Both the position numbers and the translations under genes were made by a program. A stretch of DNA of 64,000 nt, taken from contig CANTFK010000287.1 of the NCBI GenBank assembly GCA_947646735.1, positions 1-64,000 on the forward strand, read 5' to 3'. Below the pieces are notes generated by a model, which was given only the letters and a program-made list of their open reading frames with translations, was not told the origin of the DNA and made no database searches. Below, piece after piece: positions 30,211 through 50,773 of the stretch. The stretch comes from Peronospora farinosa. Taxonomy: Eukaryota; Oomycota; Peronosporomycetes; Peronosporales; Peronosporaceae. Positions within the stretch are counted from its first letter, which is position 1. Every line of letters starts with the position of its first letter.

Positions 30211-31921
30211 TTAAAACCTGCAGCCTAATGCTACTTCTTCGGCCAAATGATCGAGATTTTCTTGCGTAGCGCATTGATAATAGCTATTAAGCGACTGCAC
30301 CAGCGCCAGGCTCAGCGTGCTCTTGACAGGGAGTCTCAGGATGGACCGTGTAAGATTTTCAGCATCCCATCCTTTCATAGCGGGGCTCGCATCCATTACT
30401 TCCACAAGATCAATCCAGAGAGCCTTCTTCTCAGTGAGGATCACATTCGGCACACGAGGATCTCCATGGACCAGGCCATTCACGTGGAGCTGCCATAGCA
30501 GTTGAAAAAGGCTTTGTACTTCCTCTCGAGTTTCTGGTTGCGGTAGAGATTTCCCGACAGAAGACAGTAATAGCGCTGCGCTTCCAGGAGTTTCGATGAC
30601 CTCTCCAACAGGGGCAATCGTCAAGCCTGTACGCTGGGCATTCATCAAGGCTTGTCGCTCTCGATAAAGACGTTTCGATTTTTTTGCTCGACGATTTTCA
30701 GCGCGAAAATCTCTCCACCTTGCCCAGTTACCTTAAAAACGCGTCCATACGCGCCACGACCGAGAAATGCATCGCCTTCCACCACATCAACGTGTAATGC
30801 AATGCAGGCATTGGTCAAGTATGCCACCCACGGCAACATGCTCTCAGAAATAAAGTTCTGAAACAATGATTTCGAGCCCTTGGTGATCCATTTCGCGGTT
30901 TGAACGCTGTAAACAGCAGTCTTGGCGCTTTTGATTAACCAGAAGGAGTGGCGGTCAAAGAGAATGGCGTTTGCTGCCCTCTCGGGGCAAAGGTTTTGCA
31001 GGTATTGTACCACTTGGCCGAACGCAGCAGCAGATATACTAAGCTTGCTTTCGAACAGAATGAGGCAGTCGAATAATCCTTCCTCTGCTACTCCAAATCA
31101 AAATCCATCCGGACGATGAACACGATCTTGTGGTGTTGGCTTGACACGAAACATTCCACGGTGGGTCGCAAATTCATCCGGTTTGAGGTCTTTGTCCTTC
31201 TTCAAATTTGGAGACTGAGGCAACCACTTATGCTGCTTACTATTCACAAATACCAAACCAAAGCGTTCTAGAATGCTGCAGAAAAAAGGAGTGATAAATG
31301 CGATAAAAGCAGCCTCATTCGTGATAGCCTTGGCTAAAATCTGAATTTCCTTCGACCAAAATGCTTCTCCGTCCTCAACTAGTGCAAAATCGATGATCTG
31401 TTTATAGTCATTCAATCTTTCAAGCTCAAGTTGACCAAGTGCCTCACTCGAGAAGGTCTTTGACGGTTTGTGTGACAAGCAGGCTATGGTTTGCTCAAGA
31501 AGCGTCTCAAGTCGCGATTCGCGAGCTCTGGCTTCTCGCAGCCGTACTGAATCATGGTACAACTGTTGTTCCTGCTCTGGAACCACAACCAGCACGTGAA
31601 TTTGTTCTGGCAATGGCTGCGACATCGTGTTATCATTAAACAGCCAACGCTGTAATGTCCTCGTTGCAATCACTTGCTCTCCACCAATCATCTGCTGAGT
31701 AACTGGATGTATCTCCCCTTTATATAAATGTTGCGCGGCAGCATCGTCATCTTTTAGCCACTTGTCGTCCGTTCCCTTTGCCAGAAAGAGCTGCAGCTGG
31801 TCCGCATCAAAGTTCTCGCCATCTTAGCCTCAATGGCCTTTTTCAAGTCCCCCACACTCTCTGCCACATCGATCTTCACAGGAAACGCACTTCCCCTTAC
31901 ACCAACGATGACGCAGAACAT
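30211..31921 (-). pseudogene. Crinkler (CRN) effector-like gene with kinase-like C-terminus, broken
   Basis: Crinklers are oomycete host-targeted effectors with a conserved LFLAK/DWL N-terminus and variable C-terminal domains. The N-terminus from 31921 has [20 protein letters not shown] and [12 protein letters not shown], then [14 protein letters not shown] and, at the end of the N-terminal module, EQIHVLVVVP. The C-terminal half is a kinase-like fold: glycine loop FLGRGAYGRVFKV, lysine in FALKIVEQ, catalytic loop GLVHGDPRVPNVIL and WIDLVEV in place of DFG. Breaks: a frame change near 31815-31825 within the N-terminal module, an in-frame TGA at about 31098, and a frame change near 30650-30665 within the kinase part. 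Its 5' side ends about 45 bp from a truncated retrotransposon, so the promoter may be lost. The catalytic Asp is present but the product is probably not made. Confidence 0.82.
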
Positions 31922-31966: not shown

Positions 31967-34170
31967 TTGGTTTTAAAGTGGAACTGGAACACTGACTGTC
32001 AGCGTTTTTTTGAGCGCATCAAGCAAAGCTTAATGCAATCGCCAGGATTGGCGAGTGCAGATCAGTATAGACTATTTTACGTGGTCTGTGACGCAAGCAA
32101 TTTTGCAATCGATTGTGCACTGATGCAATATGATACAGGCGTAGAGCTTGTCGTCTGCTATCAATCGCGTCATCTGCAACCGGCTGAGAACAAATACCCG
32201 GTGCATGAAAAAAACTCTTTTCCATGAAAGATGCACTGGCCAAATTTCGCGTCTATCCTTTCGAAGATAGACCGTTCATTGTGTATACAGACCATGCGTC
32301 ATTACGCACGGCTGTAAACAGTTCACACCTCTCGCAACGAATGGCGAGATGGTTGTTGTTTTTCGCGGAGTACAACTTCTCCGTGTAGTATAAACCGGGA
32401 CGACTTAACGTCGTCGCCGATGCTCTTGCACGTCAGCCTGACATAGAGCCGACTTTGCAATTTGACAGTGATGTGAAAACACTGTCGCCACGCTGAGTAC
32501 CAGCGTCTTGTCGTCGAGTAAACTCGACGACATTAGAACGGCATGCGCACAAGATAATGATCTTGTACGCCTGATGGAGTTCATCAAGGACCCATCCAAG
32601 CAAGTTAAGAAGCGCTTGCCTGCCATGTATAAGATCTTTGGAAGATCGATACACCCAGAGGGACGGCTTATAGTACTACACAGCCTTCAACAACGACACT
32701 CCTCGTGTCGTTGTACCGCCACAACATGATCTCAGGATACGGATCATGTTTGAATGTCACGATGCACCAATAAGTGGGCATCGCAGCCGTGAGAAGACTT
32801 ATCTCACGGTCAGTCGCGACATTTACTGACCATGCCAGTATAAATTCGTGCGCAAGTACGTGCGTGCTTGCGAGGTGTGTCAACGAGTGAAGCCTAGTCC
32901 TTCACTCCGTGCACCATTGCAGCCTCTACCTGTTCCGGCAGAGTGCTGGGAGTACGTATCAATGGACTTCGTCTTTGGGTTTCCCAAAGACGCTCACGGG
33001 AATAATGGTATTCTCGTGTTTGTAGACAGGTTCAGCAAGATGGTACATCTTGTTGCTGTACCTGAGTCGATCACAGCAGAAGGCTGTTCTCGAGTGTTTA
33101 TCGATACAATCTTTCGATTGCACGGTTTACCCCGTGAACTTGTGTCCGATAGGGACCCCCGGTTCACGGCTGAGTTTTAACGTTCCGTGTTCCAAACACT
33201 TGGAACACGGCTCACAATGTCTACTTCTGACCATCCAGAAACTGATGGTCAGACTGAACGCGCCAATCGCGTCCTCGAAGAGATTATTCGAGGGTACGTC
33301 CACTCGTTTACGAGTTGGAGTGAGTTCTTGTCGATGGTCGAATTCGCCATCAACAACTCATTGCATGCTTCCACGACGCATACACCGTTCTACGTGAATG
33401 GCCTTCGCCATCCACGTGTCCCCACCTTAGTAGAGGGTGACTTTAATTTAAGGGGGGAAGGGACTAGCTCGAGCGAGAACCAATCTATCTCTTGCTCATC
33501 ACGCGACGACGTTATGGTCGACGCGAAAGTGAACGAAGTCGTACCATTCGACTTCGGTGAAGAGGAAGAAAGAAGAGCGATGAATCTCTTACTGATAACG
33601 ATGCTGAAGATATCATCATCGTTCGAGGTATCACAAGTGAGAACAGTAATGTTCTCGCTGAATTAGTAAACGATATCTCTGCAGTGCACTCACAATGCAC
33701 TGCAGCCAAAAGCAACGAGTCAACTGAGGATTTTCTGCTGACTCGTGAAGTGGTAGTCCGTTTCGTGCAAGACTCCATCGCAGAAGCGGTGGATAAGCAA
33801 AAGCGAAACGCAGACAATAATGGAAGGGCAAATGCTCAGACATTTATTGAAGGTGATTTAGTTTTACTGTGAACAGTAAACCTACCTAAACATGTAGTGA
33901 CTAACGTGGGCAGCAATAAATTGTTGCCCAAGTACATCGGCCCGTTTCGTGTATTGCGCCGCCTAGGGAACGCATACACGATCGATTTGCCACGCAGGAT
34001 GCGTACGCATCCTACGTTTTACGTGGGACGTCTTCGTCCGTACGTTCAGTACACGGCTTCTTCGAACGACGAAGATAGCCATTACTTTCAAGAATCCCCT
34101 TCAGATTCTTGTTTTCACGAACCAGATTCGATACCTGGTCGTGTAGAGATGAGATCTTCCCATGATATTG
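31967..34170 (+). mobile_element. Ty3/Gypsy retrotransposon, 3' half of pol (RNase H, integrase, chromodomain), degenerate
   Basis: The piece starts abruptly after the reverse-transcriptase core, at WNWNTDCQRFFERIKQSLMQ. It continues through RNase H (VVCDASNFAIDCALMQYD, then FIVYTDHASLRTAV), the integrase HHCC region (CEVCQRVKPSPSLR), the DDE core (SMDFVFGFP, VDRFSKMVHLVAVP, LVSDRDPRFTAEF, STSDHPETDGQTERANRVLE) and a C-terminal chromodomain-like block (YIGPFRVLRRLGNAYTIDLP, THPTFYVGRLRPYV) near 33930-34050. In-frame stops occur in RNase H, in the zinc-binding region and after the second catalytic Asp, so it is non-functional. The missing 5' half of an element of the same type lies on the opposite strand at 46.1-49.9 kb. 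Confidence 0.9.
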
Positions 34171-35641
34171 GACGATCTCCTGACGAGCTGTCACCAGCTC
34201 GTTACTTAGAGAATGAAGCCGCCGTTCATTCTCCAATAGTGCGACACCATTGTTTGCCCGAGACATCTCATGGTCAAACCCAAGCTGTCGCACAATGTCC
34301 TCTAAGCGGCGACGCTTATCCCGTTTGTGATCAACATTACAACGGAGCTCACGAGTTACACGGGTAAACCCGTCTAACTCAGCAGCCAAGTCCGATGAAA
34401 GAATCGGACAGGGTTTTTCCTCCACCACCGCATCCGCTGGTGGACTCCCATGGTGGTAAGCGCTTTCTCGTGGAACGCTTACTAAAGCACCGCGAGGTGA
34501 AGGGACGTCGGACGAGTTATCTTGTCCTTCGGCGGATAGCTGGGAACCTCGGGCCCAACTGATGGCCGACGTTCCCGGCCTTGTCGAACAGTACGACAAG
34601 GGACACCCGATGGTGAGGGACCATCGGAAAATGAGCGCCCAGCGCGCTCGTAGAGGGATTGCAAAGAAGCAATCCCTTCACGCATCTCAGAAGAGATGCG
34701 AGCCCTCCACCAGGGCTCAGTAAGGAGGTACGCCTCCTTAGGCGCTCTTGACGAGGTTCTCAGGCACCCCGGGCATGGGTCGCCTCAAGAGAGGCATAAC
34801 AGGCCTGCCTCTCTAGATAACCGGTGCAAACGATAGCATGCACCGGACGTACTTCGTTTCTGAAACTTTTGCGGCTAGCATAAAGTCTTTGAAACCAAGC
34901 ATCTTTCCCAACGTTTAAAACGTTGGTGATAAACGCGTTCCAAGATTGGAGGAACGCATCAGCCTCACGCTTCTTGTGTGGGCCATACCATCGATGTTCA
35001 AGAAACACATCGATGTAATAGTCGTTCTCAGTGCGAAAGTTCTTCGCACTGGCGTCAAGGCCATGAAGCTTTGACGCATCAAACAACGGTATGGGAAACC
35101 GTTCGTTGGTCTTTCCAGACCAACGATCAAGCAGATGCTTAGGTAGCATCCATGGCTTGCGATCAGGAGCAAGACGCAATACGTTGCGGTCTAAAGCCTC
35201 CTGCGTGGTGTCAACAGAAGTACCGACACCACGAGCATTAGTGTCAACAGAAGTACCGACACTATGATTATTGATGTCAGTAGAAGCACTGACATCACCC
35301 TTACGGTCCCCACCCGAGTCACTATCCTTCGACTCGTTTGGCGAGTCGTCTGATTCATCAGACAACCCGAACATTTCACGGTACATTGATTCAATCAATG
35401 TACCACGATCCCTCTTCGTAACATTTGACGACGAGGTATCACCCCGGGGAGAGCCCGGGAGTGACACAGGTGGATTTGAGTCGGATGCGTCATCCGACTC
35501 ACCAGAGTAGTCAACAACTAACTCTGGGTCAACATCTTCACGTACGTGAACCTGCAACAGGCGTTGCAGGCTGATGTTGACTTCCAGCATACACATTAGT
35601 GTCTGCTGGATGAGGCTGTGAAGCCTCAGTAACGGCTGCAC
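34012..35641 (-). other. Antisense reading frames inside the Ty3/Gypsy element
   Basis: Between the chromodomain and the 3' LTR the minus strand is largely open. One frame (34760-35641, 293 aa) carries an acidic Ser/Asp-rich region with a repeated VGTSVDTNARG/VGTSVDTTQEA and then a compact domain (MLPKHLLDRWSGKTNERFPI, YIDVFLEHRWYGPHKKREAD, AFLQSWNAFITNVLNVGKDA). A second (34012-34599) is rich in charged coiled-coil residues (SNELVTARQEIVQYHGKISS, LHDQVSNLVRENKNLKGILE). They may once have been one protein. I do not recognise a family. Antisense extra ORFs are known from some plant Gypsy elements; whether this one was expressed is unknown. The whole stretch is tiled with perfect hairpins. Confidence 0.5.
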
Positions 35642-35784
35642 ACAGGCGTGCAGCCGAGCTCTTAGCTGCCTAAGCAGCGACGCGCATTGACTTAGTCATA
35701 GCGTAAAATTGTTGGAATAATAGAAAATTCAACAAGTGCTCCTTTCCCATAGTCACTAAACAGTCACTAATGTGACTGTTGGTT

Positions 35785-35797
35785 GAGGGGGGGGTGA
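35785..35797 (+). other. Polypurine tract of the Ty3/Gypsy element
   Basis: A G-rich run (gaggggggggtga) abuts the 3' LTR start, the expected position of the plus-strand primer. Confidence 0.6.
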
Positions 35798-36256
35798 TGT
35801 AACGGGGTGAGCCCGTTACATAATATTGACACTTATATGAAGTGTCAATAAAAATATTATTATAACTAATAATATTTTGACAATATTACCTTTTCTTATA
35901 ATATTGTTCCCAGATCTCCTTGAAGTTGGAGATGCCCTCTCATTGGTTGATATGAGCCATCATATCAACCAACGCACTGACCAATGACCGATGGACGCGC
36001 GCAATGAGTGGAGGGAAAGTTGTCAACATACATAGTTGTAGTTTAATATAGTTAACATAGGTTATAACAGATTAGTTTTATTAGACAGTTAACTATATTA
36101 AATACAGTTTTCTTTTTCTTCTCAACTAAGCGTGTGTTTAGTTGATTGCCTTCCTCTGCTCACGTATACGTGAGGTAATTGAGGCACCTGCTTTCACTGT
36201 AATCAGTGAAAGTAGACTATACTGTAATCAGTATAGTCGGAGGGTGCCCCATTACA
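35798..36256 (+). repeat. 3' LTR of the Ty3/Gypsy element
   Basis: The LTR begins TGTAACGGGG and ends CCCCATTACA (TG...CA). It is the reverse complement, with scattered substitutions and an extra block of about 32 bp (near 35829-35860, itself containing gacacttat/atgaagtgtc inverted arms), of the sequence at 49512-49938. It carries perfect hairpins at 35798-35820, 35945-35970, 36159-36174, 36191-36212 and 36215-36238. The base following it is the target-site copy aggat (36257-36261). Confidence 0.9.
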
Positions 36257-36261
36257 AGGAT
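36257..36261. other. Target-site duplication, AGGAT (3' side)
   Basis: The five bases after the 3' LTR are aggat. The five bases outside the other LTR (49939-49943, atcct) are the reverse complement, as expected if both LTRs belong to one insertion now split by an inversion. Confidence 0.7.
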
Positions 36262-36296
36262 CGTGCCAATATTCAACTCACGGTTCTGTGAAGTGG

Positions 36297-36990
36297 GTTC
36301 TCAAAATTGTATGATGAGACCCCAAACCACTCACTGTGCCGGACTGCCGACTGTCGGAGGGGGTACCCCGATGCCGCGTATGGACCTTCTCTCACCTTGT
36401 GTACCCGTCGGCTGGCGGGTTGCACTCTTCGGAAGACTTGGTGAAGATGTAGACGTCTGCCTTGAGGGAGGTAGACCTGGGGGGCCTCGAGTGGATATGC
36501 TTCACTCGGTGGGCCGGTAGGTGGCCACTCGATCGACCTTGTCGAGAGTGGACTTAGAGCCAAATTCTTCAGGGAGCTTGTCGTCCCTGGCCTTTTCCTT
36601 CTGTTTCAGGGGTATTAACCACCTGACCTTTACTTTGCTCCCAGACCGTGAGGTGAGGGAGACCGCTTCCGATAGCGGGTCTTGGGGGGTGTTGCTACTC
36701 GAACGAGCTCACAGGCCAAATATATCCTGGAGCTACTTTCGCACTTGAACTTCGCTACACAACTGTCTTCGACGGGGGGCCAAAATATATCCCTTCCCGG
36801 AACAGTGAGTAGCTTAGAGCAAGTTCTTCTTGGGTGACGGATTCGTGCCACGTATATCGCAAATTGAGTAGTATTTAATAATGTCCTATCCTTTTAACTC
36901 CTTTACTCAATCCTTGCCTGAGCTCTGATTCCTTGCGTCTACTGGTATGATCCTTGTATTAACTGGTCAGGAGTGGCTGAACCCCGAGGG
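36297..36990. repeat. Duplicated block, copy 1
   Basis: About 700 bp starting gttctcaaaattgtatgatg is nearly identical to 43201-43895 (offset 6,904 bp), with only a few substitutions. It directly precedes a minisatellite array in both places. The minus strand has short open stretches (for example VRWLIPLKQKEKARDD), but no identifiable protein. Only the first copy is cut on its left by the retrotransposon. Confidence 0.9.
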
Positions 36991-39900
36991 GCCGAGGTCG
37001 ACCAATGAGGGACCCAGGTCTACCAACGAGGGACCGGGTCGACCAATGAGGGACCCAGGTCGACCAATGAGGGACCCAGGTCGACCAATGAGGGACCCAG
37101 GTCTACCAGCGAGGGACCGGGTCGACCAATGAGGTACCCAGGTCTACCAGCGAGGAACCGGGTCGACCAATGAGGTACCCAGGTATACCAACGTGGGACC
37201 GTGTCTACCGATGAGGGACTCAGGTCTACCAACGAGGGACCGGGTCGACCGATGAGGGACCAGGTCGACCGACGAGGGACCCAGGTCTACCGATAAGGGA
37301 CTCAGGTCTACCAACGAGGGACCGGGTCGACCGATGAGGGACCAGGTCGACCGGCGAGGGACCCAGGTATACCGATGAGGGACCGGGTCGACCAATGAGG
37401 GACCCAGGTCTACCAACGAGGGACCGGGTCGACCAATGAGGGACCCAGGTCTACCAGCGAGGGACCGAGTCGACCAATGAGGGACCCAGGTCTACCGATG
37501 AGGGACCTGTTCGACCAATGATGGACCGGGTCGACCAATGAGGGCCATGGTCGACTCCCTTCGGTACGGGTTAAACAGTACCCTGGTAATGACCTCTCAT
37601 TTGTTTGTATTTCAAATTCTCAGCCAACGGTCGCTCCACTCCGAGGTTCCCATTATCTCCGGTCCCTTCTCTCGAGTGCGTGGTCCCTTCTCCCTAGTCC
37701 ACGGCCCCTTGTCCCTTCAATCCAACTGGCCCCTGGGTTCTTCACAATTTAGGAAAGCACTTTACCACAGCCGCCCCTTGCACTTGCTCAGCCGTACAGC
37801 GGCTTGAGCATGGGCATGTATTCCCACGTCAATCACGTAGGGTTATTTGCTTGCTCTTTGGTAGGTAGTCCGTGGCCAACCTGGGTCACTCCAGCTGTGG
37901 TTTCATCCTTCGATACAGTGAGCTGCATTCTTGAGTGACCCAGGTCTACTGAAGAGGGACAGAGGTTTACCGAAGAGGGAACCAGGTGTACTAACGAGGG
38001 ATCGGGTCTACTGACAGGGGCCGAGTTCGACCAATGAGGGACCGGGCCTACCAACGAGGGGCCGAGGTCGACCGATGAGGGACCCAGGTCTACCAGCGAG
38101 GGACCGGGTCGACCAATGAGGTACCCAGGTCTACCAACGAGGGACCGGGTCGACCGATGAGGGACCAGGTCGACCGACGAGGGACCCAGGTCTACCAGCG
38201 AGGGACCGGGTCGACCAATGAGGGACCCAGGTCTACCAACGAGGGACCGGGTCTACCGATAAGGGACTCAGGTCTACCAACGAGGGACCGAGTCGACCAA
38301 TGAGGGACCCAGGTCTACCGATGAGGGACCTGTTCGACCAATGATGGACCGGGTCGACCAATGAGGGCCATGGTCGACTCCCTTCGATACCGGTTAAACA
38401 GTACCCTGGTAATGACCTCTCCTTTGTTTGTATTTCAAATTCTCAGCCAACGGTCGCTCCACTCCGAGGTTCCCATTATCTCTGGTCCCTTCTCTCGAGT
38501 GCGTGGTCCCTTCTCCCTAGTCCACGGCCCCTTGTCCCTTCAATCCAACTGGCCCCTGGGTTCTTCACAATTTAGGAAAGCACTTTACCACAGCCGCCCC
38601 TTGCACTTGCTCAGCCGTACAGCGGCTTGAGCATGGGCATGTATTCCCACGTCAATCACGTAGGGTTATTTGCTTGCTCTTTGGTAGGTAGTCCGTGGCC
38701 AACCTGGGTCACTCCAGCTGTGGTTTCATCCTTCGATACAGTGAGCTGCATTCTTGAGTGACCCAGGTCTACTGAAGAGGGACAGAGGTTTACCGAAGAG
38801 GGAACCAGGTGTACTAACGAGGGATCGGGTCTACTGACAGGGGCCGAGTTCGACCAATGAGGGACCGGGCCTACCAACGAGGGGCCGAGGTCGACCGATG
38901 AGGGACCCAGGTCTACCAGCAAGGGACCGGGTCGACCAATGAGGTACCCAGGTCTACCAACGAGGGACCGGGTCGACCGATGAGGGACCAGGTCGACCGA
39001 TAAGGGACTCAGGTCTACCAGCGAGGGACCGGGTCGACCGATGAGGGACCAGGTCGACCGGCGAGGGACCCAGGTATACCGATAAGGGACCGGGTCGACC
39101 AATGAGGTACCCAGGTCTACCAACGAGGGACCGGGTCGACCGATGAGGGACCAGGTCGACCGACGAGGGACCCAGGTCTACCAGCGAGGGACCGGGTCGA
39201 CCAATGAGGGACCCAGGTCTACCAACGAGGGACCGGGTCTACCGATAAGGGACTCAGGTCTACCAACGAGGGACCGGGTCGACCGATGAGGGACCAGGTC
39301 GACCGGCGAGGGACCCAGGTATACCGATAAGGGACCGGGTCGACCAATGAGGTACCAGGTCTACCAACGAGGGACCGGGTCGACCAATGAGGGACCCAGG
39401 TCTACCAACGAGGGACCGGGTCGACCAATGAGGGACCCAGGTCTACCAGCGAGGGACCGAGTCGACCAATGAGGGACCCAGGTCTACCGATGAGGGACCT
39501 GTTCGACCAATGATGGACCGGGTCGACCAATGAGGGCCATGGTCGACTCCCTTCGGTACGGGTTAAACAGTACCCTGGTAATGACCTCTCATTTGTTTGT
39601 ATTTCAAATTCTCAGCCAACGGTCGCTCCACTCCGAGGTTCCCATTATCTCCGGTCCCTTCTCTCGAGTGCGTGGTCCCTTCTCCCTAGTCCACGGCCCC
39701 TTGTCCCTTCAATCCAACTGGCCCCTGGGTTCTTCACAATTTAGGAAAGCACTTTACCACAGCCGCCCCTTGCACTTGCTCAGCCGTACAGCGGCTTGAG
39801 CATGGGCATGTATTCCCACGTCAATCACGTAGGGTTATTTGCTTGCTCTTTGGTAGGTAGTCCGTGGCCAACCTGGGTCACTCCAGCTGTGGTTTCATCC

Positions 39901-42083
39901 TTCGATACAGTGAGCTGCATTCTTGAGTGACCCAGGTCTACTGAAGAGGGACAGAGGTTTACCGAAGAGGGAACCAGGTGTACTAACGAGGGATCGGGTC
40001 TACTGACAGGAACCGAGTTCGACCAATGAGGGACCGGGCCTACCAACGAGGGGCCGAGGTCGACCGATGAGGGACCCAGGTCTACCAGCGAGGGACCGGG
40101 TCGACCAATGAGGGACCCAGGTCGACCAATGAGGGACCCAGGTCTACCAGCGAGGGACCGGGTCGACCAATGAGGTACCCAGGTCTACCAGCGAAGGACC
40201 GGGTCGACCAATGAGGGACCCAGGTCTACCAACGAGGGACCGGGTCTACCGATAAGGGACTCAGGTCTACCAACGAGGGACCGGGTCGACCGATGAGGGA
40301 CCAGGTCGACCGGCGAGGGACCCAGGTATACCGATGAGGGACCGGGTCGACCAATGAGGGACCCAGGTCTACCAACGAGGGACCGGGTCGACCAATGAGG
40401 GACCCAGGTCTACCAGCGAGGGACCGAGTCGACCAATGAGGGACCCAGGTCTACCGATGAGGGACCTGTTCGACCAATGATGGACCGGGTCGACCAATGA
40501 GGGCCATGGTCGACTCCCTTCGGTACGGGTTAAACAGTACCCTGGTAATGACCTCTCATTTGTTTGTATTTCAAATTCTCAGCCAACGGTCGCTCCACTC
40601 CGAGGTTCCCATTATCTCCGGTCCCTTCTCTCGAGTGCGTGGTCCCTTCTCCCTAGTCCACGGCCCCTTGTCCCTTCAATCCAACTGGCCCCTGGGTTCT
40701 TCACAATTTAGGAAAGCACTTTACCACAGCCGCCCCTTGCACTTGCTCAGCCGTACAGCGGCTTGAGCATGGGCATGTATTCCCACGTCAATCACGTAGG
40801 GTTATTTGCTTGCTCTTTGGTAGGTAGTCCGTGGCCAACCTGGGTCACTCCAGCTGTGGTTTCATCCTTCGATACAGTGAGCTGCATTCTTGAGTGACCC
40901 AGGTCTACTGAAGAGGGACAGAGGTTTACCGAAGAGGGAACCAGGTGTACTAACGAGGGATCGGGTCTACTGACAGGGGCCGAGTTCGACCAATGAGGGA
41001 CCGGGCCTACCAACGAGGGGCCGAGGTCGACCGATGAGGGACCCAGGTCTACCAGCGAGGGACCGGGTCGACCAATGAGGGACCCAGGTCGACCAATGAG
41101 GGACCCAGGTCTACCAGCGAGGGACCGGGTCGACCAATGAGGTACCCAGGTCTACCAGCGAAGGACCGGGTCGACCAATGAGGGACCCAGGTCTACCAAC
41201 GAGGGACCGGGTCTACCGATAAGGGACTCAGGTCTACCAACGAGGGACCGGGTCGACCGATGAGGGACCAGGTCGACCGGCGAGGGACCCAGGTATACCG
41301 ATGAGGGACCGGGTCGACCAATGAGGGACCCAGGTCTACCAACGAGGGACCGGGTCGACCAATGAGGGACCCAGGTCTACCAGCGAGGGACCGAGTCGAC
41401 CAATGAGGGACCCAGGTCTACCGATGAGGGACCTGTTCGACCAATGATGGACCGGGTCGACCAATGAGGGCCATGGTCGACTCCCTTCGGTACGGGTTAA
41501 ACAGTACCCTGGTAATGACCTCTCATTTGTTTGTATTTCAAATTCTCAGCCAACGGTCGCTCCACTCCGAGGTTCCCATTATCTCCGGTCCCTTCTCTCG
41601 AGTGCGTGGTCCCTTCTCCCTAGTCCACGGCCCCTTGTCCCTTCAATCCAACTGGCCCCTGGGTTCTTCACAATTTAGGAAAGCACTTTACCACAGCCGC
41701 CCCTTGCACTTGCTCAGCCGTACAGCGGCTTGAGCATGGGCATGTATTCCCACGTCAATCACGTGGGTTATTTGCTTGCTCTTTGGTAGGTAGTCCGTGG
41801 CCAACCTGGGTCACTCCAGCTGTGGTTTCATCCTTCGATACAGTGAGCTGCATTCTTGAGTGACCCAGGTCTACTGAAGAGGGACAGAGGTTTACCGAAG
41901 AGGGAACCAGGTGTACTAACGAGGGATCGGGTCTACTGACAGGGGGCCGAGTTCGACCAATGAGGGACCGGGCCTACCAACGAGGGGCCGAGGTCGACCG
42001 ATGAGGGACCCAGGTCTACCAGCGAGGAACCGGGTCGACCAATGAAGGACCCAGGTCGACCGACGAGGGACCATGACCAACCA
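36990..42083. repeat. Minisatellite arrays alternating with a 380-bp spacer (macrosatellite)
   Basis: Six arrays of 20/21-bp monomers of the type ggtcgaccaatgagggaccc and aggtctaccaacgagggacc alternate with five almost identical spacers of about 380 bp (37553-37934, 38376-38756, 39545-39925, 40512-40892, 41479-41859). The spacer starts at gggccatggtcgactccctt and ends near tgcattcttgagtgacccag. The distance between successive spacers is 823, 1169, 967 and 967 bp, so the last units are an exact higher-order repeat. Open frames on both strands follow from the monomer lacking stops and are not evidence of a protein. Confidence 0.92.
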
Positions 42084-42274
42084 TTTAAGGAGATTTCTAT
42101 TGGCTGAAACTACAACCTATCAGAAACCTGGATTTTTGTTGGTCGTCCACGCGTCACAGTTTCTTGAGCTCGCTGTTCCTGCTTCGCGCCCCTCGCTCGG
42201 GACTTAAGCAGCGCCGCATCAGTCGGTCCCAGAGGAATCCTTATTACTGAGTCAGTCGACGATGATCCTTGTGC

Positions 42275-43238
42275 TCACTGCCCCACTACACTTTGGTCGC
42301 TCGACGGCAGGAGGTGTAGTGGACATTGCTTCGCCCCTGGGTGGACAGCGGCTCCATACATTTGAGGGTAGACCGCGATGTCTTGAAGTTTCATCTGGCT
42401 GTCCCTGGATCGTGATCGTGTGTTTGTCGTCAGTGGTAGGTGCACCTTTGCTGGCGTGGTACCGACTAGGATCGACAGACGCTTGTATATCTTCGCTAAC
42501 GTCGTTGTGATTCTATCGAACCCCAGGAAAAGCAGGTTGTCCGGGTCGATACTTCCTGCGACCTTGTTTGCTTCCCGAAGAAGGGTACCCAGCGCAGTGA
42601 TCGCGTCTGTGACGGTCTGCAGCTGTGATAGGGTCGACACCGGTCCAGTAAGCTGACCTAGCAGCCGGATCTCGAGGGACTTCGCGACGGGATCGCTCTC
42701 CAGGAATGCGTTCAGCTTGCGTTTGTGGTAAGCCTTCGTGACGTCAGCGTCCGACTATGATGCCAGTCCAGACTTCTTGGGTCCTATCGACTTGGTGTTT
42801 CCTGGCGCCTTCATCCGGCACTTTGTCGGCTTGGACTGCGCGATCTTGGTTTGTTGTTTTCTTCGGGGACCTTAGCCTCTCGGTTTTCGCCGTCGGCTGA
42901 TGGTCCTCTGGATCATGATAGGCATCATGACCCAAGGTGTCCTCTACGAGGACATAGGGAGGGTATTTATGTTTATCTTCAATAAGTTCAACCTCGACCA
43001 TGTTGACCGGGCCCCTCCCAAGGTCCGGTCGGCCCTTCGATCCTTTGTTTTTCTCTTCTTGAGTCACTGGCGATCGGTCTTCCAGTGGCTCTTCGGTCTT
43101 GTTCTCCTTCTTGACATGAACATCTTTATCTTCTAGGGACTCGCGGTGAAATCCCGCGTCTTCCGAAGATCCGGGCACGCGCACCATTGTGGTGAAGTGC
43201 GTTCTCAAAATTGTATGATGAGACCCCAAACCACTCAC
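42275..43238 (-). other. Unidentified minus-strand open frames between repeat blocks
   Basis: Unique sequence between the arrays holds two minus-strand open stretches: 42744-43238 (charged, EESKED-like, PVTQEEKNKGSKGRPDLGRG, YPPYVLVEDTLGHDAYHDPE) and 42275-42640 (MSTLSQLQTVTDAITALGTL, LREANKVAGSIDPDNLLFLG). The first seems to continue a frame from the duplicated block (VYIFTKSSEECNPPADGYTR). The composition suggests a protein that has decayed or a transposon-derived gag-like protein, but no domain is recognised. Confidence 0.35.
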
Positions 43239-43895
43239 TGTGCCGGACTGCCGACTGTCGGAGGGGGTACCCCGATGCCGCGTATGGACCTTCTCTCACC
43301 TTGTGTACCCGTCGGCTGGCGGGTTGCACTCTTCGGAAGACTTGGTGAAGATGTAGACGTCTGCCTTGAGGGAGGTAGACCTGGGGGGCCTCGAGTGGAT
43401 ATGCTTCACTCGGTGGGCCGGTAGGTGGCCACTCGATCGACCTTGTCGAGAGTGGACTTAGAGCCAAATTCTTCAGGGAGCTTGTCGTCCCTGGCCTTTT
43501 CCTTCTGTTTCAGGGGTATTAACCACCTGACCTTTACTTTGCTCCCAGACCGTGAGGTGAGGGAGACCGCTTCCGATAGCGGGTCTTGGGGGGTGTTGCT
43601 ACTCGAACGAGCTCACAGGCCAAATATATCCTGGAGCTACTTTCGCACTTGAACTTCGCTACACAACTGTCTTCGACGGGGAGCCAAAATATATCCCTTC
43701 CCGAAACAGTGAGTAGCTTAGAGCAAGTTCTTCTTGGGTGACGGATTCCTGCCACGTATATCGCAAATTGAGTAGTATTTAATAATGTCCTATCCTTTTA
43801 ACTCCTTTACTCTATCCTTGCCTGAGCTCTGCTTCCTTGCGTCTACTGGTATGATCCTTGTATTAACTGGTCAGGAGTGGCTGAACCCCGAGGGG
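43201..43895. repeat. Duplicated block, copy 2
   Basis: Second copy of the block at 36297-36990, with only isolated base changes. It is followed, as in copy 1, by a gtcgaccaatgaggg minisatellite, so block, array and spacer were duplicated together. Confidence 0.9.
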
Positions 43896-44785
43896 CCGAG
43901 GTCGACCAATGAGGGACCCAGGTCTACCAACGAGGGACCGGGTCGACCAATGAGGGACCCAGGTAGACCAATGAGGGACCCAGGTCTACCAGCGAGGGAC
44001 CGGGTCGACCAATGAGGTACCCAGGTCTACCAACGAGGGACCGGGTCGACCAATGAGGTACCCAGGTCTACCAACGAGGGACCAGGTCGACCGACGAGGG
44101 ACCCAGTGAGGGACCGGGTCGACCAATGAGGTACCCAGGTCTACCAGCGAGGAACCGGGTCGACCAATGAGGTACCCAGGTATACCAACGTGGGACCGTG
44201 TCTACCGATGAGGGACTCAGGTCGACCAACGAGGGACCAGTTTCAGGAGGTACCGGGTCGACCAATGAGGGACCCAGGTCTACCAACGAGGGACCCGGGT
44301 CTACCGATAAGGGACTCAGGTCTACCAACGAGGGACCGGGTCGACCGATGAGGGACCAGGTCGACCGGCGAGGGACCCAGGTATACCGATGAGGGACCGG
44401 GTCGACCAATGAGGGACCCAGGTCTACCAACGAGGGACCGGGTCGACCAATGAGGGACCCAGGTCTACCAGCGAGGGACCGAGTCGACCAATGAGGGACC
44501 CAGGTCTACCGATGAGGGACCTGTTCGACCAATGATGGACCGGGTCGACCAATGAGGGCCATGGTCGACTCCCTTCGATACCGGTTAAACAGTACCCTGG
44601 TAATGACCTCTCCTTTGTTTGTCTTTCAAATTCTCAGCCAACGGTCGCTCCACTCCGAGGTTCCCATTATCTCCGGTCCCTTCTCTCGAGTGCGTGGTCC
44701 CTTCTCCCTAGTCCACGGCCCCTTGCCCTTCAATCCAACTGGCCCCTGGGTTCTTCACAATTTAGGAAACCACTTTACCACAGTT
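43891..44785. repeat. Seventh minisatellite array plus truncated spacer
   Basis: The same 20/21-bp monomers run from 43891 to about 44566, with one internal irregular junction near 44240 (caggaggtaccggg). A sixth spacer follows but is lost after cactttaccacag (about 44784), where unrelated sequence begins. Confidence 0.85.
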
Positions 44786-44929
44786 CCTGTGGGCACGCAA
44801 GAAGAACTGTCGGATCGACAAGCATTGGCGCCGTATCGGTTGGACTATATTTGCCGTGCTAGCCCGGATCGACTCTACATAGCACTATACTCCATCCTGT
44901 CCATCTTAAGTCGCTGAAAGGAGAGACAA

Positions 44930-45620
44930 AAAAATCGTGTTAGACGAAAGATAACAAGAAAGGATCAGGTGGAGACTAAAGAGCAAGTGCGGAAGCTGTA
45001 GTTCATGTAGTAATTGTAACAGGCTATAAGTTACACGGTACGTTAAGTGTTGAGTGCTTAACGGGTAGGCCTAAATGGGTACGAGGTACCTTAGGCCTAC
45101 CACTTGGGTGTGGCACATCAATGTGACCCACCCTCGTGAATGTGATATCCATGGGTAGATTCACATTCAACGAGGATGACGCCAGTTGGGACTGGGCGTC
45201 ATGATGACGCTTCAGAAAGACGTCATCAGCGAGCTTAAATATATTTTAAGCTCGCACGGAATGATACGTTTCTAAAGAGACGCGTATCCAATCTTTGCAT
45301 AATTAACCAATCAGTAGTTAAGTTTATATTTCGTTTAATTCTATTACATATATATCAGTATTGAATCTACTAAACATCGCACACTGCGAACGAGAAGCTG
45401 TATAAGCTTCTGCGTAGCTCTTGTCTTAGCAGTTCGTTGCGCGTTTCGCTTCAAAGCGACCGGCAACGGTTGGTACAGCGCTTCTTAGCGCCGACCAACA
45501 CCACCACCACCGCACGCGGAGGTAAGACGGTATAAACGCTTCCTCGCGCTTCTTGAAGGTGTGTCCGCGTAGTACGTGGCAGCTTCATTACGAAGTGCCC
45601 GTCTAAAGTAGCAATAATAA
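44930..45620. repeat. Hairpin-rich LTR-like sequence, possible solo LTR
   Basis: About 450 bp (45048-45500) begins TGTTG and ends CAACA. It contains long perfect inverted arms such as ggtaggcctaa/ttaggcctacc (near 45064-45101) and gcgagcttaaa/tttaagctcgc (near 45230-45256). It resembles the Gypsy LTR in style, not in sequence. No target-site duplication is visible, so the limits and the solo-LTR reading are tentative. Confidence 0.4.
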
Positions 45621-46079
45621 TCCAGGTTTATGCATTACGTTTCTTGTTCTTTGCCTAGTGTTGAAAATAAACATGCAAGACACGTATTTGCCATTTGCGA
45701 CTGTCTATCTAGCACTGTGACAGTCCAGAAACCATCATCTAATACAACCTTCAGTAAAAAAGTCTACAACAGCAACGGCTTTACTAGACATAGGCGTAGA
45801 TAGCAGGCTTGCCGGCGACGCCGTCTCAACATTTTTTGCGTCTCCGTTCGGAATGTTCTCGCTTACGTAGTAAAACTGCAATGAAACAAATCGCCATGAG
45901 AGTTCTGAGTAGTTTTTTGAGCTCTCCATGTTGCAGTGCTTCAGATATACTCGACATTTACACGTCACTAAAGGATAAAAATTACGTCAATGTCCTGGAG
46001 GTCCAGCGACCGGCAAAAGTACAGCTTGTTTATGACGTCATATAATAATAACTTCAGTAAAGCACACAGCACTACAAAA

Positions 46080-47710
46080 CAGTACACACATACCTCAGCT
46101 TCAGGACATTGCGGCCACGCTTAGTGGTAGTGAGTAGAAAAACTCTTACCCGACAAGAAAGACGTACTGTCATCTCGGCGTAGTTGCGTGAGTGCTTGGG
46201 CGAGTACGCCGCTAGCCTAAGGAACTTCCTTAGTCCCTTGAAATCGACTGGCACTGGCCAGTCGGTGATCGCCTTGATCTTTTCTGGATTAGGACGTACG
46301 CCATTCTTTCCGACGATGTACCCAAGAAGTGGTATTTCGCTAGCTGCGAATATACACTTCTTGAGGTTGGCGTACAACATATGCTCGCGCATAAGGGTAA
46401 AATCCTTACAGACGTGGAGACTATGGGCTTACACGTCTGTTTTCCCGTCCATAGCCCGGATATGGACGAACACGTCATCGAAGTAATTCGTGTAAAATCG
46501 CGCACCGGTCCTAATAGATGTGAAACACATCTATTGAATGTGGCTGGTGCATTTCTAAGCCCTTGCGGCATCACCAACTATTCCCAGAGCATACCACTGG
46601 GAGTGCTCACTGCTGTGTATGGGATGTCCCGTTCACGCATTAGGATATGATAGAAACCATCCATCAGATCCATGGACGAAAAGATGGTACTCTTAGACAT
46701 ACCATCGATGATTACGTCCTTTCTCGTTATCGACGTTTGCGCCGGTATCGTTGCAGCGTTCAACTTAATGAACGCGTGTACTATCCGCCACCCTCCTGTG
46801 GCCTTGCGCACACAGAAGGTCGGAGAGCTGTGAGGTGAAATTGACTCCCTCGCATGGCCCGCTGCTAGGCGTATCGGCAAAGAGCTTGTCGATCGCCTCG
46901 ACCTGTTCCCGAGGCAGTGGCCACACAATATTTTGTGCCAGGAACAAGGTCGATCTCGTGTCGAGCACCTTTATCCTTCGGCAACTCGCACGGAAAGGAT
47001 CCAGGGAATACATCCTTGAATTCGACCAAATTCTTGTACAAAGGATTTGACTTCAGCGACTCCCAGGATTGCGATTTATATCGCTCAATCCGAGTCTTCT
47101 CATCAAGGAAACTTTCGTCCATTGATGAGCTGCTGAGAACCCGTTCGTTCTCGGCAAAAACTGTTGCTGACCGAATGTCAGTCATGTACTCGTCCTCTGC
47201 GACGAGCACACAGATCTGCTTGACTTTGCCACTACGTAGATCACGCAAGAACCTTTTAGGTTCTAGCGTAGGCAACTGAGTTATCCCCGAAGTTAACTTC
47301 GGAGGCGCGATCAGATCAAGCGTATAAGCGCCTACGTTTGATCCGTCATTAACCAAGACGTTCAACGTCTCGGTTACTTCCTGGGGACTTATTCCCTCAG
47401 GACACTGGGGGCTTATTCCCTCAGGGCACCGGGGACTTATTCCCGCAGGCTCGATGGAACTTGTTCCATCGCCTTCCTCTAGCTGTGGTGGCGCAGCCAC
47501 AGCGAGATCCTCTACGATTAACTCTCCAGTTGATCTAGGATTACCGTGTTGCCGCTTCTGGGCAACCGGTTTACTCTTCGGTGAATGCTGCCCTCTAGGC
47601 GAGCATTCATGTCCCGGTCCACTCGACTTATTCGAGTGGTGGACCTTCGGCGCTGCCTGTGCTTGTGCACAGCCACCGGCAGCTTGCTCCACAGCGTGAC
47701 TGTCTGTCAC
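46080..47710 (-). mobile_element. Ty3/Gypsy retrotransposon, reverse transcriptase region, degenerate and truncated
   Basis: The minus strand carries a linker with a triple GISPxCPE motif near 47420, then RT: WRIVHAFIKLNAATIPAQTS, SSMDLMDGFYHILMRERDIP, MPQGLRNAPATFNRCVSHLL, the catalytic NYFDDVFVH, LKKCIFAASEIPLLGYIVGK and DWPVPVDFKGLRKFLRLAAY. The sequence is spread over several frames, with multiple stops and shifts. It stops being element-like after NYAEMTVRLS (about 46150), a few codons before the point at which the piece at 31967 starts. Together the two pieces cover pol with only a short gap. Confidence 0.88.
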
Positions 47711-47872
47711 GCTGAGTTCTTGTGCAGTCGTATTAACGACCTAACCGCAAGTGAGGCCATCACACTCACTCGTAATACATTCACACACTTGTGAACGCTC
47801 CAAGACGTTCATCAGATGGCCATTTGATGAACAAGCGGCAGGCATCTTCACGGTTCGATGCTGCCAGCTGAT

Positions 47873-49497
47873 TCATGGCTCGTACCTTCTGAGACATGGT
47901 AATCCTAGGATGACATTAAATTTGTCATCCAGATCAAGTACGATGAAATCATTATCGTGCTTTTTGCCTTCAAGCGTGTAGTGAATTCCCACTACACGTT
48001 TCTTTACTGTTACGGATGCGCCAGTTGCAAGGCGCACCGTCATCCTCGTTGGAGGGGTCTCGCGCTCAACATATTTGAGCCTACGATCATCTAGCGATTG
48101 GCGTCGAACAAAGTTGTCCAAAGCCCCACAATCAACTAGGGCGCGAAGTGACATGTTCTTTGTCACTTCGATCTTCAAGGTGATGAGGGATACTTTATCG
48201 CTTGGAGCGACAACACACAGTGACTGTGTGTTGGGTGCAGCCCTCGTCAAGAGTCCCGCGAACTCTCTTGACGTTGCTGGATCAGTAGGGCGCTCCGCCC
48301 CTACTGACCCCGACTGTTCTTTTGATGGTCCATCACGTTGTTGCGATTTTGCAGCAATGTGGGACCCACGTCTCTGGCCCTTCTTGGCAGACGATCGATC
48401 GTCACTCCCAGTGTTACGAGACACTGGGCGTGGGGCACTACACTCATAAGCGTAGTGGCCCAACTTCTGACAGCGATTGCATTTTTGCAATCGCTTGTAC
48501 CCTGGAGAGCGAGGTCGCTCGCTCTCTACATAGGAGAGGTCCATTGGTTCTGGACCTCCTCCCTCCTGCCGTCTCGGTGGACGATAGGCCCCCGAGTGGA
48601 CGTGAGCCTGTTGTAGGCTAAAGTCCTCCTGTTCCGCTGCAGAGATCGCTTGGTCCAGCGATTCTAGTTCCAAGCGGAACAGGTGGGTCTTGACAGGATC
48701 ATCTGTCAGACCCTTGATGAACACAGTAACCTGCGTGTGTTCATCGATTGGGTTCAGTACGATACATCTAACGAGGTATCGTACGTGTTGGGCGTAAGCG
48801 TGTATATCACGCTTACCCTGTTTCAAATCCAGGAGCTCAGCTCGAGCTCTGAATTCGGCGCGAGGCGGTTCAAACGTGTGTTTGAGCCGCGCCTTGAAGA
48901 CGTCATACGCTGGGAAAACGTATGGGTCGTGCAGTTTGAGCCCTAAGGCCCAAGCTTTGGCACGTCCTGCCAAGTTCGACATGGCGAACTTGACCTTCAT
49001 CGCATCGTCATCGATGCGACGAGCCTCAATGGCATCGTCGAGTTCGACGAACCATCTTAACAAGGAGTCGCTTTCGACTGCCTTGTACTTGGAGACATCA
49101 ATCTTCAAGGACTCGGGTCGACGTGTATACGTCGACCCGGCAGCAACAGCACTAGCCTGCTGTTGTCTCAACAGTTCAGACTGTTAAGCACCCTGCTGCA
49201 TCAACAAGTCAGCTTGTTGAGCGCCTTGTTGAGAACCTGCTCCTGTAGCAAGGTGAGTTTCTTTACAACTTCGTCAAGTTCATGTTGTATGAACTTGGCG
49301 ATGGTTGCATGTTGGTCGTCTCCGCTAAGAGAGAGCAACATGGCACCAACGGCAGGGTTGCCGATGGTTTCAGCCATACGCTGAACCGCATTCCATTCGA
49401 GGTCACTTAAATGGCGGAAGTCATCACGCGTTGCGTGGTGACGTTCATCACCCGCTGATTCCATAGCGGATATGGCGGTGGTCGCTGAATGGACCAC
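47873..49497 (-). mobile_element. Ty3/Gypsy Gag and protease, degenerate
   Basis: Gag with capsid-like helices (RWFVELDDAIEARRIDDDAM, KVKFAMSNLAGRAKAWALGL, VFKARLKHTFEPP, VTVFIKGLTDDPVKTHLFRL) and a zinc knuckle, CNRCQKLGHYAYEC. The protease follows in the same frame, with the active-site block LRALVDCGALDNFVRRQSLD and a flap-like VVGIHYTLEG, then VILGLPCLRRYEP. DCGA replaces the usual DTGA/DSGA. The beginning of Gag (to 49497) lies in another frame with one stop before QSELLRQQQASAVAAG. The coding strand is packed with perfect hairpins (48472-48495, 48505-48526, 48757-48784, 48794-48816, 49114-49139). Confidence 0.88.
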
Positions 49498-49509
49498 GAA
49501 GTGCTACCA
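49495..49509 (-). other. Primer-binding site of the Ty3/Gypsy element
   Basis: Two bases inside the 5' LTR end the minus strand reads TGGTAGCACTTCG, beginning with TGG as expected for complementarity to a tRNA 3' CCA end. The tRNA was not identified. Confidence 0.5.
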
Positions 49510-49511
49510 GG

Positions 49512-49938
49512 TGTAATGGGGCACCCTCCGACTATACTGATTACAGTATAGTCTACTTTCACTGATTACAGTGAAAGCAGGTGCCTCAATTACCTCACGT
49601 ATACGTGAGCAGAGGAAGGCAATCAACTAAACACACGCTTAGTTGAGAAGAAAAAGAAAACTGTATTTAATATAGTTAACTGTCTAATAAAACTAATCTG
49701 TTATAACCTATGTTAACTATATTAAACTACAACTATGTATGTTGACAACTTGCCCTCCACTCATTGCGCGCGTCCATCGGTCATTGGTCAGTGCGTTGGT
49801 TGATATGATGGCTCATATCAACCAATGAGAGGGCATCTTAAACTTCAAGGAGATCTAGGAACAATATTATAAGAAAAGATAATATTGTCAAATATTATTA
49901 GTTATATTAATATTATGTAACGGGCTCACCCCGTTACA
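49512..49938 (-). repeat. 5' LTR of the Ty3/Gypsy element
   Basis: Read on the minus strand it starts TGTAACGGGG and ends CCCCATTACA, matching the 3' LTR at 35798-36256 but lacking about 32 bp of it and differing at scattered positions. It is flanked outside by atcct (49939-49943), the complement of the AGGAT next to the other LTR. Confidence 0.9.
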
Positions 49939-49943
49939 ATCCT

Positions 49944-50769
49944 GCTTCACAGACAACACCTTTCGTTTCGACAGCTTCTGCTTTTTCGAGACCTGCTACC
50001 CTCACACCTAGACTAAAATACGAAGAGAATAGAATAACAAAATTATTTATAAATACAGAAAAACCACCTCCCAATTCGCGCCTTCGAGCAACAACGGCCA
50101 AGAGACGAAGACCTTCAAAGAGCCGGTCAACCGGCCCCCTCCGACCAGGGCGGGAAGTCCCTTCAACGGGAGGCCCAGGATAAGAGGGGGGAGGTTTTTC
50201 CTTTGCTGCGTGCGCTATGGGGGGCAAGCGCAGCGTGCGAACCGTAAGGGGAGCACCAACCCTGTTACCCCCGGGGGGAGAGGATCGACGACCGCGGTTA
50301 TCATTCCCTCTTTCTCCAATAGTTCCTGCTATTCTACGTCAGCCTTCAAGACGCCGATTCGATCGCTGAGCGCGAATCTCGGTCCCACGAAGTGAGTTTG
50401 CCAAGAACGTGAATTGATCGGCCCCGTCCAGGTGCATCATCGGTCGATCGGGACTGATCGGCGTGGTGCCCGGCGCTTGTTGCGATCATTGAGCCACTGT
50501 TTACACCTCGGGCTGGATACCTGATTCCACGTGCCCTTTTCGGAGTGTCCCCCGTGACGCCCGACGTCTCGAGCCAGCAGATTGAGCCAGCGAGGCGAAG
50601 ACTGACGAAGTCCTGGTAGAAGCACTCCAGACATCTTACTAATCCTTAATGTTTGAAATAGACGGTCTGTTCTTCTAAATACAGAAGAACCTGTCTAAAA
50701 TATTACTTTGAGGACAGCAATGTTATCATTCAAGACATATGTAAAATAATTGCTTGTCGCGGCTCAGGA
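49944..50769. other. Region beyond the retrotransposon insertion, no clear gene
   Basis: On the minus strand 49934-50227 is open (VRVAGLEKAEAVETKGVVCE, then AG at the target site) and ends exactly at the insertion. It may be a reading frame interrupted by the element. The remaining sequence to 50769 is GC-rich and holds no recognisable feature. Confidence 0.3.
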
Positions 50770-50773
50770 CTAA

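Follow-up and report, generated by a model that had tools for sequence, protein, structure and literature searches.

The single Ty3/Gypsy retrotransposon in a 64-kb stretch of Peronospora farinosa DNA (contig CANTFK010000287.1, positions 1 to 64,000; hereafter the window) is filled with perfect short hairpins, in an excess that is far outside chance on the measures we used. The excess extends through the family to which this element belongs (the window family) and into three other Ty3 families, and among the element classes sampled in this genome it is confined to Ty3. An earlier note on this DNA had described such a tiling and proposed template switching during reverse transcription or selection for folded RNA as its cause. 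Our preferred explanation is that fold-back template switching in the active phase of the element makes and perfects the hairpins, and on this we are evenly balanced between confidence and doubt. The agent is probably the element's own reverse transcriptase.

We counted as a hairpin any perfect inverted repeat with an arm of at least 8 bp and a loop of at most 12 nt, and compared the counts with those in dinucleotide shuffles (100 per element piece and 30 per flank) and, for coding frames, with permutations of synonymous codons. The two pieces of the element (8.07 kb) gave 79 hairpins compared to 1.3 in dinucleotide shuffles; 42 came from 31967-36256 (0.73 expected, maximum 4 in 100 shuffles) and 37 from 46156-49938 (0.53 expected, maximum 3 in 100 shuffles). 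Raising the arm to at least 10 bp left 24 hairpins (15 and 9), compared to 0.08 in shuffles (0.07 and 0.01). The 46 kb of flanking DNA yielded 12 against 8.9 expected, with 4 against 6.8 in the left flank (1-31966) and 8 against 2.1 in the right flank (49939-64000). Under synonymous permutation, the 17 hairpins of the gag-protease frame (gag-PR) fell to 0.60, the 12 of an antisense open reading frame to 0.44, the 4 of the integrase frame at 33873-34364 to 0.29, the 3 of the frame at 33181-33663 to 0.14, and the 10 in pol of T1, one of the other Ty3 families, to 0.77. Six host genes showed no excess, with 4 hairpins in total against about 3.3 under permutation. Because the hairpins vanish under synonymous permutation, neither the protein nor its codon usage accounts for them, and the two kinds of control together ruled out chance or base composition. 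This bears out the argument of the earlier note that one protein constraint is insufficient for hairpins lying in the long terminal repeats (LTRs), gag, integrase and an antisense frame.

All 18 hairpins that the note had listed as examples were exact in position. Its density of one per 30-40 bp was too high; over the whole element we found one per 70-84 bp with arms of at least 7 bp and one per 102 bp with arms of at least 8 bp. The LTRs were densest, at 17-19 hairpins/kb with a mean arm of 9.4-10, followed by gag-PR and the 3' region (13 hairpins/kb) and by the leader, the linker between protease and reverse transcriptase (RT) and the RNase H/integrase region (6-8 hairpins/kb); RT had the lowest density (4.6 hairpins/kb). 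Among hairpins with loops of 3-8 nt the excess was already clear at arm 5 (63 vs 28) and rose to 14 vs 0.07 at arm 9. The arm-length spectra of the LINE-like (long interspersed nuclear element) and Copia loci and of the window genes stayed near those of shuffles, with no comparable excess. The stretch of the CHD gene at 6.0-6.1 kb, where nothing similar had been seen, came close to that description and has one hairpin of arm 7 and loop 2. The description of 31967-49938 as one tiled element had to be revised, as 36257-46155 consists mostly of tandem repeats and has a modest excess (19 vs 2.3).

Further copies were sought in 46.85 Mb of genome sequence (274 contigs, with the window on contig C65). 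We read 30 loci among the 103 gag matches listed and 8 among the 40 listed matches to the integrase-LTR end (L001-L008 and L039-L068; of these, L001 and L039 both represent the copy in the window, and L005 and L062 overlap). The excess was present in all 38 of these window-family loci, at 3.7-16.7 hairpins/kb compared to at most 0.37/kb in shuffles, the range being 3.7-14.9 hairpins/kb in the gag loci and 9.1-16.7 hairpins/kb in the integrase-LTR-end loci, each with the window's own copy included. The other Ty3 families, T1 (L069, L071, L073, L075 and L076), T2 (L038, L070 and L072) and T3 (L074), showed a smaller excess in all nine loci, 1.4-3.4 hairpins/kb against at most 0.34 in shuffles. 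T1 and T2 are approximately 70-72% identical, and T3 is 64-67% identical to both. A T1 3' end (L079) had 6 hairpins in 3 kb, the final 0.8 kb being a T3 piece. A single scan of viral contigs, made with the T1 pol protein, gave no relative.

The 29 LINE-like loci (L009-L037) had no excess, at 0-0.8 hairpins/kb, and in the highest of them (L022) a terminal stretch is 95.9% identical to the window family. The LINE-like label was assigned by eye from five open frames (L014, L025, L029, L033 and L035) without a profile search; L009, L022, L027 and L036 match some of these frames, and the remaining loci are only putatively LINE-like. Two Copia loci of 2 kb each also lacked an excess, with 1 hairpin each against about 0.46.

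Two side observations concern the copies themselves. Contig C25 of genome G000 has, at 102259-110878, a pair of like-oriented gag copies separated by 7.73 kb, and an integrase-LTR match lies between the two; the arrangement looks like tandem elements with a common LTR. Of the 40 places in the genome that were scored for the stretch L079:1201-1500 at the T1 3' end, 12 had a rounded identity of 100%, and four of these, counting the stretch's own location, had the top score; T1 has therefore been active very recently.

We predicted folding energies in windows of 120 nt or 350 nt and compared them with shuffles, using synonymous permutation for coding frames. In 120-nt windows the window copy had a mean energy of -40.1 on the sense strand and -40.8 on the antisense strand, compared to -28.8 when shuffled (z -3.5), so the two strands fold equally well. 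The corresponding z was -4.5 for two other window-family loci and -3.2 for a part of T3; T1 and T2 gave about -1, two genes -0.3, and the LINE-like and Copia loci 0. In 350-nt windows, three window-family pieces folded 36%, 40% and 52% beyond shuffles, T3 31%, T1 and T2 8-9%, and Copia and CHD 1.5-2%; under synonymous permutation the excess was 45% in gag-PR, 7.5% in T1 pol and 3.2% in phosphoglycerate kinase. The window family thus has genome-scale ordered structure in the sense of a mean energy well under that of shuffled controls. T3 (L074) differs in form: it folds strongly (z between -2.2 and -8.2 for windows of at most 240 nt) and has few G.U pairs yet few perfect stems, its hairpins being longer, branched and imperfect.

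The predicted stems are short of G.U pairs. These made up 3.9-8.4% of pairs in four window-family pieces (12.6-13.8% shuffled) and 4.9% in T3 (14.5% shuffled), compared to 10.7% in T1 (13.6%), 8.8% in T2 (12.6%) and 11.4 and 12.6% in Copia (12.4 and 13.9%). The first mismatch beyond 610 unique stem cores was G.T in 130 and A.C in 147, and beyond 84 stems of the other Ty3 families it was G.T in 8 and A.C in 15. Loops of 4 nt were the commonest, in 21 of 101 window hairpins with arms of at least 8 bp and loops of at most 60 nt. We saw no preference for RNA tetraloops: among 34 sites with four-base loops, 3 had GNRA, 2 its complement TYNC and 1 UNCG (LTR sites being counted from both alignments described below). 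Structure selected in one RNA strand is expected to tolerate G.U pairs and to fold better in that strand. The window family has none of these marks of selection on one sense of RNA: no preference for G.U, no difference between sense and antisense, and few GNRA or UNCG loops.

Single events that bear on the origin of the hairpins were found by aligning copies, in two window-family alignments of 30 and 8 rows, a T1 alignment of 5 rows and a T2 alignment of 3 rows. At seven hairpin sites the loop is exactly reverse-complemented between copies, four in the 30-row alignment (AAC/GTT, ATAC/GTAT, AA/TT and TTT/AAA) and three in the 8-row alignment (CAAA/TTTG, AAG/CTT and ATTA/TAAT). Four of the seven are unambiguous, and AA/TT, TTT/AAA and ATTA/TAAT read equally as plain complement. 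Of the distinct ordered pairs of loop alleles that differ in two or more places (430 + 70), none was an exact reversal and none a complement alone. In three clear events one arm has been rewritten to fit the other; two of these coincide with a loop inversion (L004 and L006), and the third is a multi-base change in L004 that creates an 11-bp stem. The sense-3' arm is the rewritten one in all three, as expected if the strand under synthesis runs in the sense direction. Loop inversion and the one-step, multi-base rewriting of one arm, either of which is a signature of template switching, are thus both present.

Paired changes were also found, with at least one at 17 site entries (14 and 3 in the two alignments). 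The LTR occurs in two haplotypes, between which a single hairpin shows as many as four paired changes; one of the aligned copies (L051) is a mosaic. Both LTRs of the window carry the same single-base change in the 5' arm of one hairpin, which gives 13/13 pairs where the commonest form elsewhere has 12/13. We counted 62 shared arm variants per column, of which 14 were compensated (both columns counted), 37 break a pair (14 giving G.T and 12 A.C) and 2 do neither; in the remaining 9, pairing is seen in the rarer form and not in the commoner one. Where T1 and T2 could be aligned they have 7 and 8 hairpins, respectively, of which two are common to both, one with a compensatory change from T:A to C:G.

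Once in the genome, the hairpins decay neutrally. Private changes per column were equal in the arms and elsewhere in both alignments (0.338 vs 0.331, and 0.123 vs 0.132). Arms and other columns thus change at the same pace. No upkeep of the hairpins is visible after integration, and their creation and retention therefore belong to the active phase. A first comparison had suggested stronger conservation of the arms; this was an ascertainment effect, and the per-column counts are equal.

We propose that fold-back copying would proceed as follows. A single strand would fold back at a chance near-palindrome, and the polymerase would leave the proper template, copy the first arm of this same strand and then return. 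The second arm would become the exact complement of the first, and the loop would sometimes be inverted. Over many rounds, with protein selection as a filter, near-palindromes could be ratcheted into perfect Watson-Crick hairpins across LTR, untranslated and coding sequence, and events like the loop inversions and arm rewrites would have made most of the hairpins. Plus-strand DNA synthesis is perhaps the step at which this happens, and after integration the hairpins would decay at the ordinary mutation rate.

Several observations weigh against this proposal. Copia also uses reverse transcriptase yet has no excess, and a Ty3-specific property is therefore needed. Loop inversions are few, in alignments that contain 1,077 single private changes, and T1 and T2 have none, with only 6 and 1 loop pairs of at least two differences. 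In a strict test of private clusters, fold-back copying fitted 4 of 179 clusters and a mirror control 2, and the two two-base cases are at control level and on opposite arms (L049 5', L006 3'). New multi-mismatch hairpins confined to few copies were found at two sites in the 8-row alignment and at none in the other three alignments. The check for paired changes between copies that the earlier note proposed came out positive at some sites; among these, site 4600 (a single pair) and the second LTR hairpin also have broken intermediates. The arm asymmetry is weak in deeper comparisons, with 76 differences on the 3' arm and 60 on the 5' arm, and per hairpin it is 13 vs 8 with 7 ties in comparisons that are not independent. 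The variation in the copies looks mostly post-insertion, which leaves the active-phase rate poorly constrained, and the observed events might postdate integration. Gag protein identity is 0.789 in 5' arms, 0.728 in 3' arms and 0.732 outside hairpins, and hairpins on conserved gag motifs bring no drop in conservation. Finally, among loops of 3-8 nt, arm 8 outnumbers arm 7 in the window family (23 vs 13), a surplus that looks like a stability threshold; the T families have no such dip at arm 7 (arm 8 vs arm 7, 9 vs 22). Two other analyses were given up. A broad pairwise fold-back search (88 and 15 clusters vs 10 and 4 in mirror) was inflated by copies in which existing hairpins had decayed and was not used, and arm polarity between families and against gag homologues was weak and was dropped as support.

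The chief alternative is selection for a folded genome, in which hairpins everywhere would aid packaging, resistance to nucleases or small RNAs, or copying of the transcript or the single-stranded cDNA, and individual positions would hardly matter. We regard this as plausible, although we lean against it. The predicted folding in the window family, in T3 and, under synonymous permutation, in gag-PR agrees with it, as do the threshold-like arm lengths in the window family and the respect of the hairpins for protein constraint. The positions turn over and the property stays, to judge by T1 and T2, which have just two hairpins in common, and ordered structure in viral genomes is likewise poorly conserved in position according to the available text of PMC7642675. 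Against it stand the depletion of G.U pairs, the equal folding of both strands, the scarcity of GNRA, TYNC and UNCG loops, and stems more perfect than folding alone requires. The arm columns are also no more conserved in shared variants, a weak test as the variation mostly looks post-insertion. Of the two causes in the earlier note, template switching thus gained support from the loop inversions and one-arm rewrites, and selection on folded RNA came without its expected marks of wobble pairing, strand and tetraloops. The two processes can act together, and we leave the choice of mechanism open.

What is selected could also be a structure in DNA, either single-stranded or cruciform (in cDNA, for instance, or for nucleosome exclusion or recombination). 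Such selection would be indifferent to strand and intolerant of wobble, which fits the strand symmetry and the nearly Watson-Crick-only stems; the predominance of 4-nt loops also counts in its favour. Against it, dozens of unrelated hairpins in coding sequence would all have to be functional, and genomic copies do not retain them; we consider it improbable. Ordinary template switching during host replication could make and maintain hairpins where DNA is poorly constrained, and genomic template switching is documented and can invert loops (PMC8794818, as far as its available text goes). The window genes and the LINE-like and Copia loci have no excess, however, and arms decay neutrally in genomic copies, so that a host origin is very improbable. 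An artefact of composition, assembly or search is almost certainly not the answer: we found no support for it, the 41-bp arrays in 36257-46155 having a modest excess of their own, and it is opposed by the dinucleotide and synonymous controls and by the recurrence of the same hairpins in many separate loci.

Known systems share parts of this pattern; the comparisons here and below draw on the available portions of the papers. Genome-scale ordered RNA structure in RNA viruses consists of pervasive local stem-loops in coding and non-coding sequence, as in the window family, with positions poorly conserved between relatives (PMC7642675). The folding excess recorded there is 15% for SARS-CoV-2, 7.5-10.7% for hepatitis C virus and 23.4% for the highest genome, compared to 36-52% in the window family, although window step and shuffles differ from those of that paper. 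The window-family stems differ further in being near Watson-Crick-only, short of G.U and strand-symmetric, and the genome is that of a retrotransposon. Template-switch mutations create and maintain RNA hairpins and can invert loops (PNAS 2022, PMC8794818), and a loop length of 4 is enriched in their rRNA events; that paper is titled for DNA replication and leaves the biological mechanism open. Loop inversion, several simultaneous compensatory changes and 4-nt loops are common to both cases, but the events are rare and in RNA genes there, whereas here they concern a whole mobile element and other sampled sequences of the same genome lack the pattern.

Maize Sireviruses, which are Copia elements, have palindromic clusters in their LTRs (Bousios 2016, as cited in PMC10760457), and, according to the text of PMC10760457 available to us, maize Ty3 elements lack an obvious peak of structure of this kind. 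Both cases are LTR retrotransposons with clustered, folding palindromes. Those of Sireviruses are limited to an LTR cis-region, whereas the window family has Ty3 proteins and hairpins throughout the element, coding sequence included. The genomic RNA of yeast Ty3 likewise has stable folded regions; its well-folded core is approximately 20% of the sequence, in an adenosine-rich genome, and tiling with perfect hairpins is not mentioned in the accessible part of PMC11381356. In the parts of the open-licence literature that were searched, we found no earlier description of perfect hairpins tiling a Ty3 element.

The features of the element are collected in the table below. In a tblastn search, the T1 pol protein matches up to residue 747 at 46156 on the minus strand and continues from residue 756 at 31979 on the plus strand; the window therefore holds one element split within RNase H by an inversion of approximately 31967-46155. 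Position 31967, where the span given in the earlier note begins, is an inversion breakpoint and not an LTR end, and the other breakpoint is at approximately 46155. Inside the inverted segment lie the 3' half of the element and a region of tandem repeats, whose 41-bp units are grouped into blocks of approximately 823-967 bp, and the rearrangement has left the two LTRs, which have TG...CA termini, mutually inverted. Assignment to Ty3/Gypsy rests on Pfam matches for gag, Ty3 capsid, protease and a Tf2-1-type SH3 domain, and on collinearity with T1 pol across the inversion, with integrase following RNase H; in the Pfam search of window frames, the RT and zinc-knuckle scores fell under their cut-offs, and neither RNase H nor the integrase core matched a profile of its own.

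Table. Features of the Ty3/Gypsy element and selected hairpins in the window
Feature	Position	Strand	Evidence or remark
5' LTR	49512..49938	- (sense = - strand)	98.3% inverted match to 35853-36256 plus 30-bp exact match of terminal hairpin; 8 perfect hairpins of arm at least 8, 18.7/kb
gag (capsid, CCHC zinc knuckle) and protease frame	47876..49183	-	Pfam Retrotrans_gag 2.4e-12, Ty3_capsid 2e-7, Peptidase_A2B 6.5e-7; 17 hairpins
Reverse transcriptase and first part of RNase H, up to inversion breakpoint	46156..46970	-	RVT_1 4.2e-5 (below curated cut-off); tblastn T1 pol residues 509-747
Remainder of RNase H and start of integrase region, beyond breakpoint	31967..33171	+	tblastn T1 pol residues 756-1165 at 31979-33171, two pieces
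Integrase C-terminal part, SH3-like Tf2-1 domain	33720..34496	+	SH3_Tf2-1 2.3e-14 in frame 33873-34364; tblastn T1 polC 64-302
Antisense open frame, 311 amino acids, overlapping 12 hairpins	34763..35695	-	No Pfam match
3' LTR, TG start, CA end	35798..36256	+ (sense = + strand)	8 hairpins of arm at least 8, mean arm 10
Example hairpin, arm 11, loop 4	33185..33210	+	Window scan
Example hairpin, arm 12, loop 1	35380..35404	+	Perfect in window copy; 11/12 pairs in 6/8 aligned rows
gag hairpin, arm 11	49114..49139	-	4-nt loop in both orientations (ATAC, GTAT) among copies
Hairpin, 2-nt loop	47452..47471	-	Loop AA in window and other copies, TT in L044
LTR hairpin, arm 13, loop 4	35943..35972	+	Counterpart in other window LTR at 49796-49825; both 13/13 pairs

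The antisense frame stays open despite the hairpins that overlap it. The 5' LTR (49915-49938, compared with 35798-35852) lacks approximately 31 bp that carry a perfect arm-11 hairpin of the 3' LTR, a deletion of hairpin size; all but one of the 8 rows in the 3' alignment have this hairpin. Within the inverted segment, at 36985-44783, each 41-bp unit has two halves of approximately 20-21 bp and is arrayed inside the higher-order repeats, five of which share a 181-bp stretch at 99-100% identity; 36288-37544 is repeated at 43192-44415. Perfect inverted repeats with longer loops lie in the right flank at 50783-50823 (arm 11, loop 19) and 51201-51247 (arm 12, loop 23).

The window genes encode a CHD-type remodeller, phosphoglycerate kinase, a COP9 subunit and a Crinkler N-terminus, the last being a match to the Crinkler effector N-terminal domain (5.8e-7, above cut-off) at 31101-31823 on the minus strand, adjoining the inversion breakpoint. 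The best gag protein match listed was 94% identical, and the next 19 (among the best 20 of 120 listed) were 59-79% identical, many of them labelled Peronospora matthiolae. These genes and the closest gag proteins listed indicate an oomycete that is probably downy-mildew-like.

If the hairpins are products of copying, the element family would be a natural record of template switching at a scale undescribed in the literature searched, as far as its available text goes, and would be relevant to how perfect stems and compensatory pairs can form with no broken intermediate stage. If they are products of selection, their folding on the measure used exceeds the highest genome value in the available part of the RNA-virus paper (PMC7642675), raising the question of what the folding protects against. 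Either explanation is testable, as each of many copies has dozens of hairpins and this genome's own LINE-like and Copia elements can serve as internal controls. We consider it slightly less likely than not that the replication enzyme of a retrotransposon lineage has left a genome-wide signature of self-templating, in which each round of reverse transcription folds the nascent strand back onto itself and perfects quasi-palindromes, those in protein-coding sequence included, into a near-continuous series of hairpins. Should this be true, the order of the sequence would be set by the copying habit of a polymerase as much as by selection.

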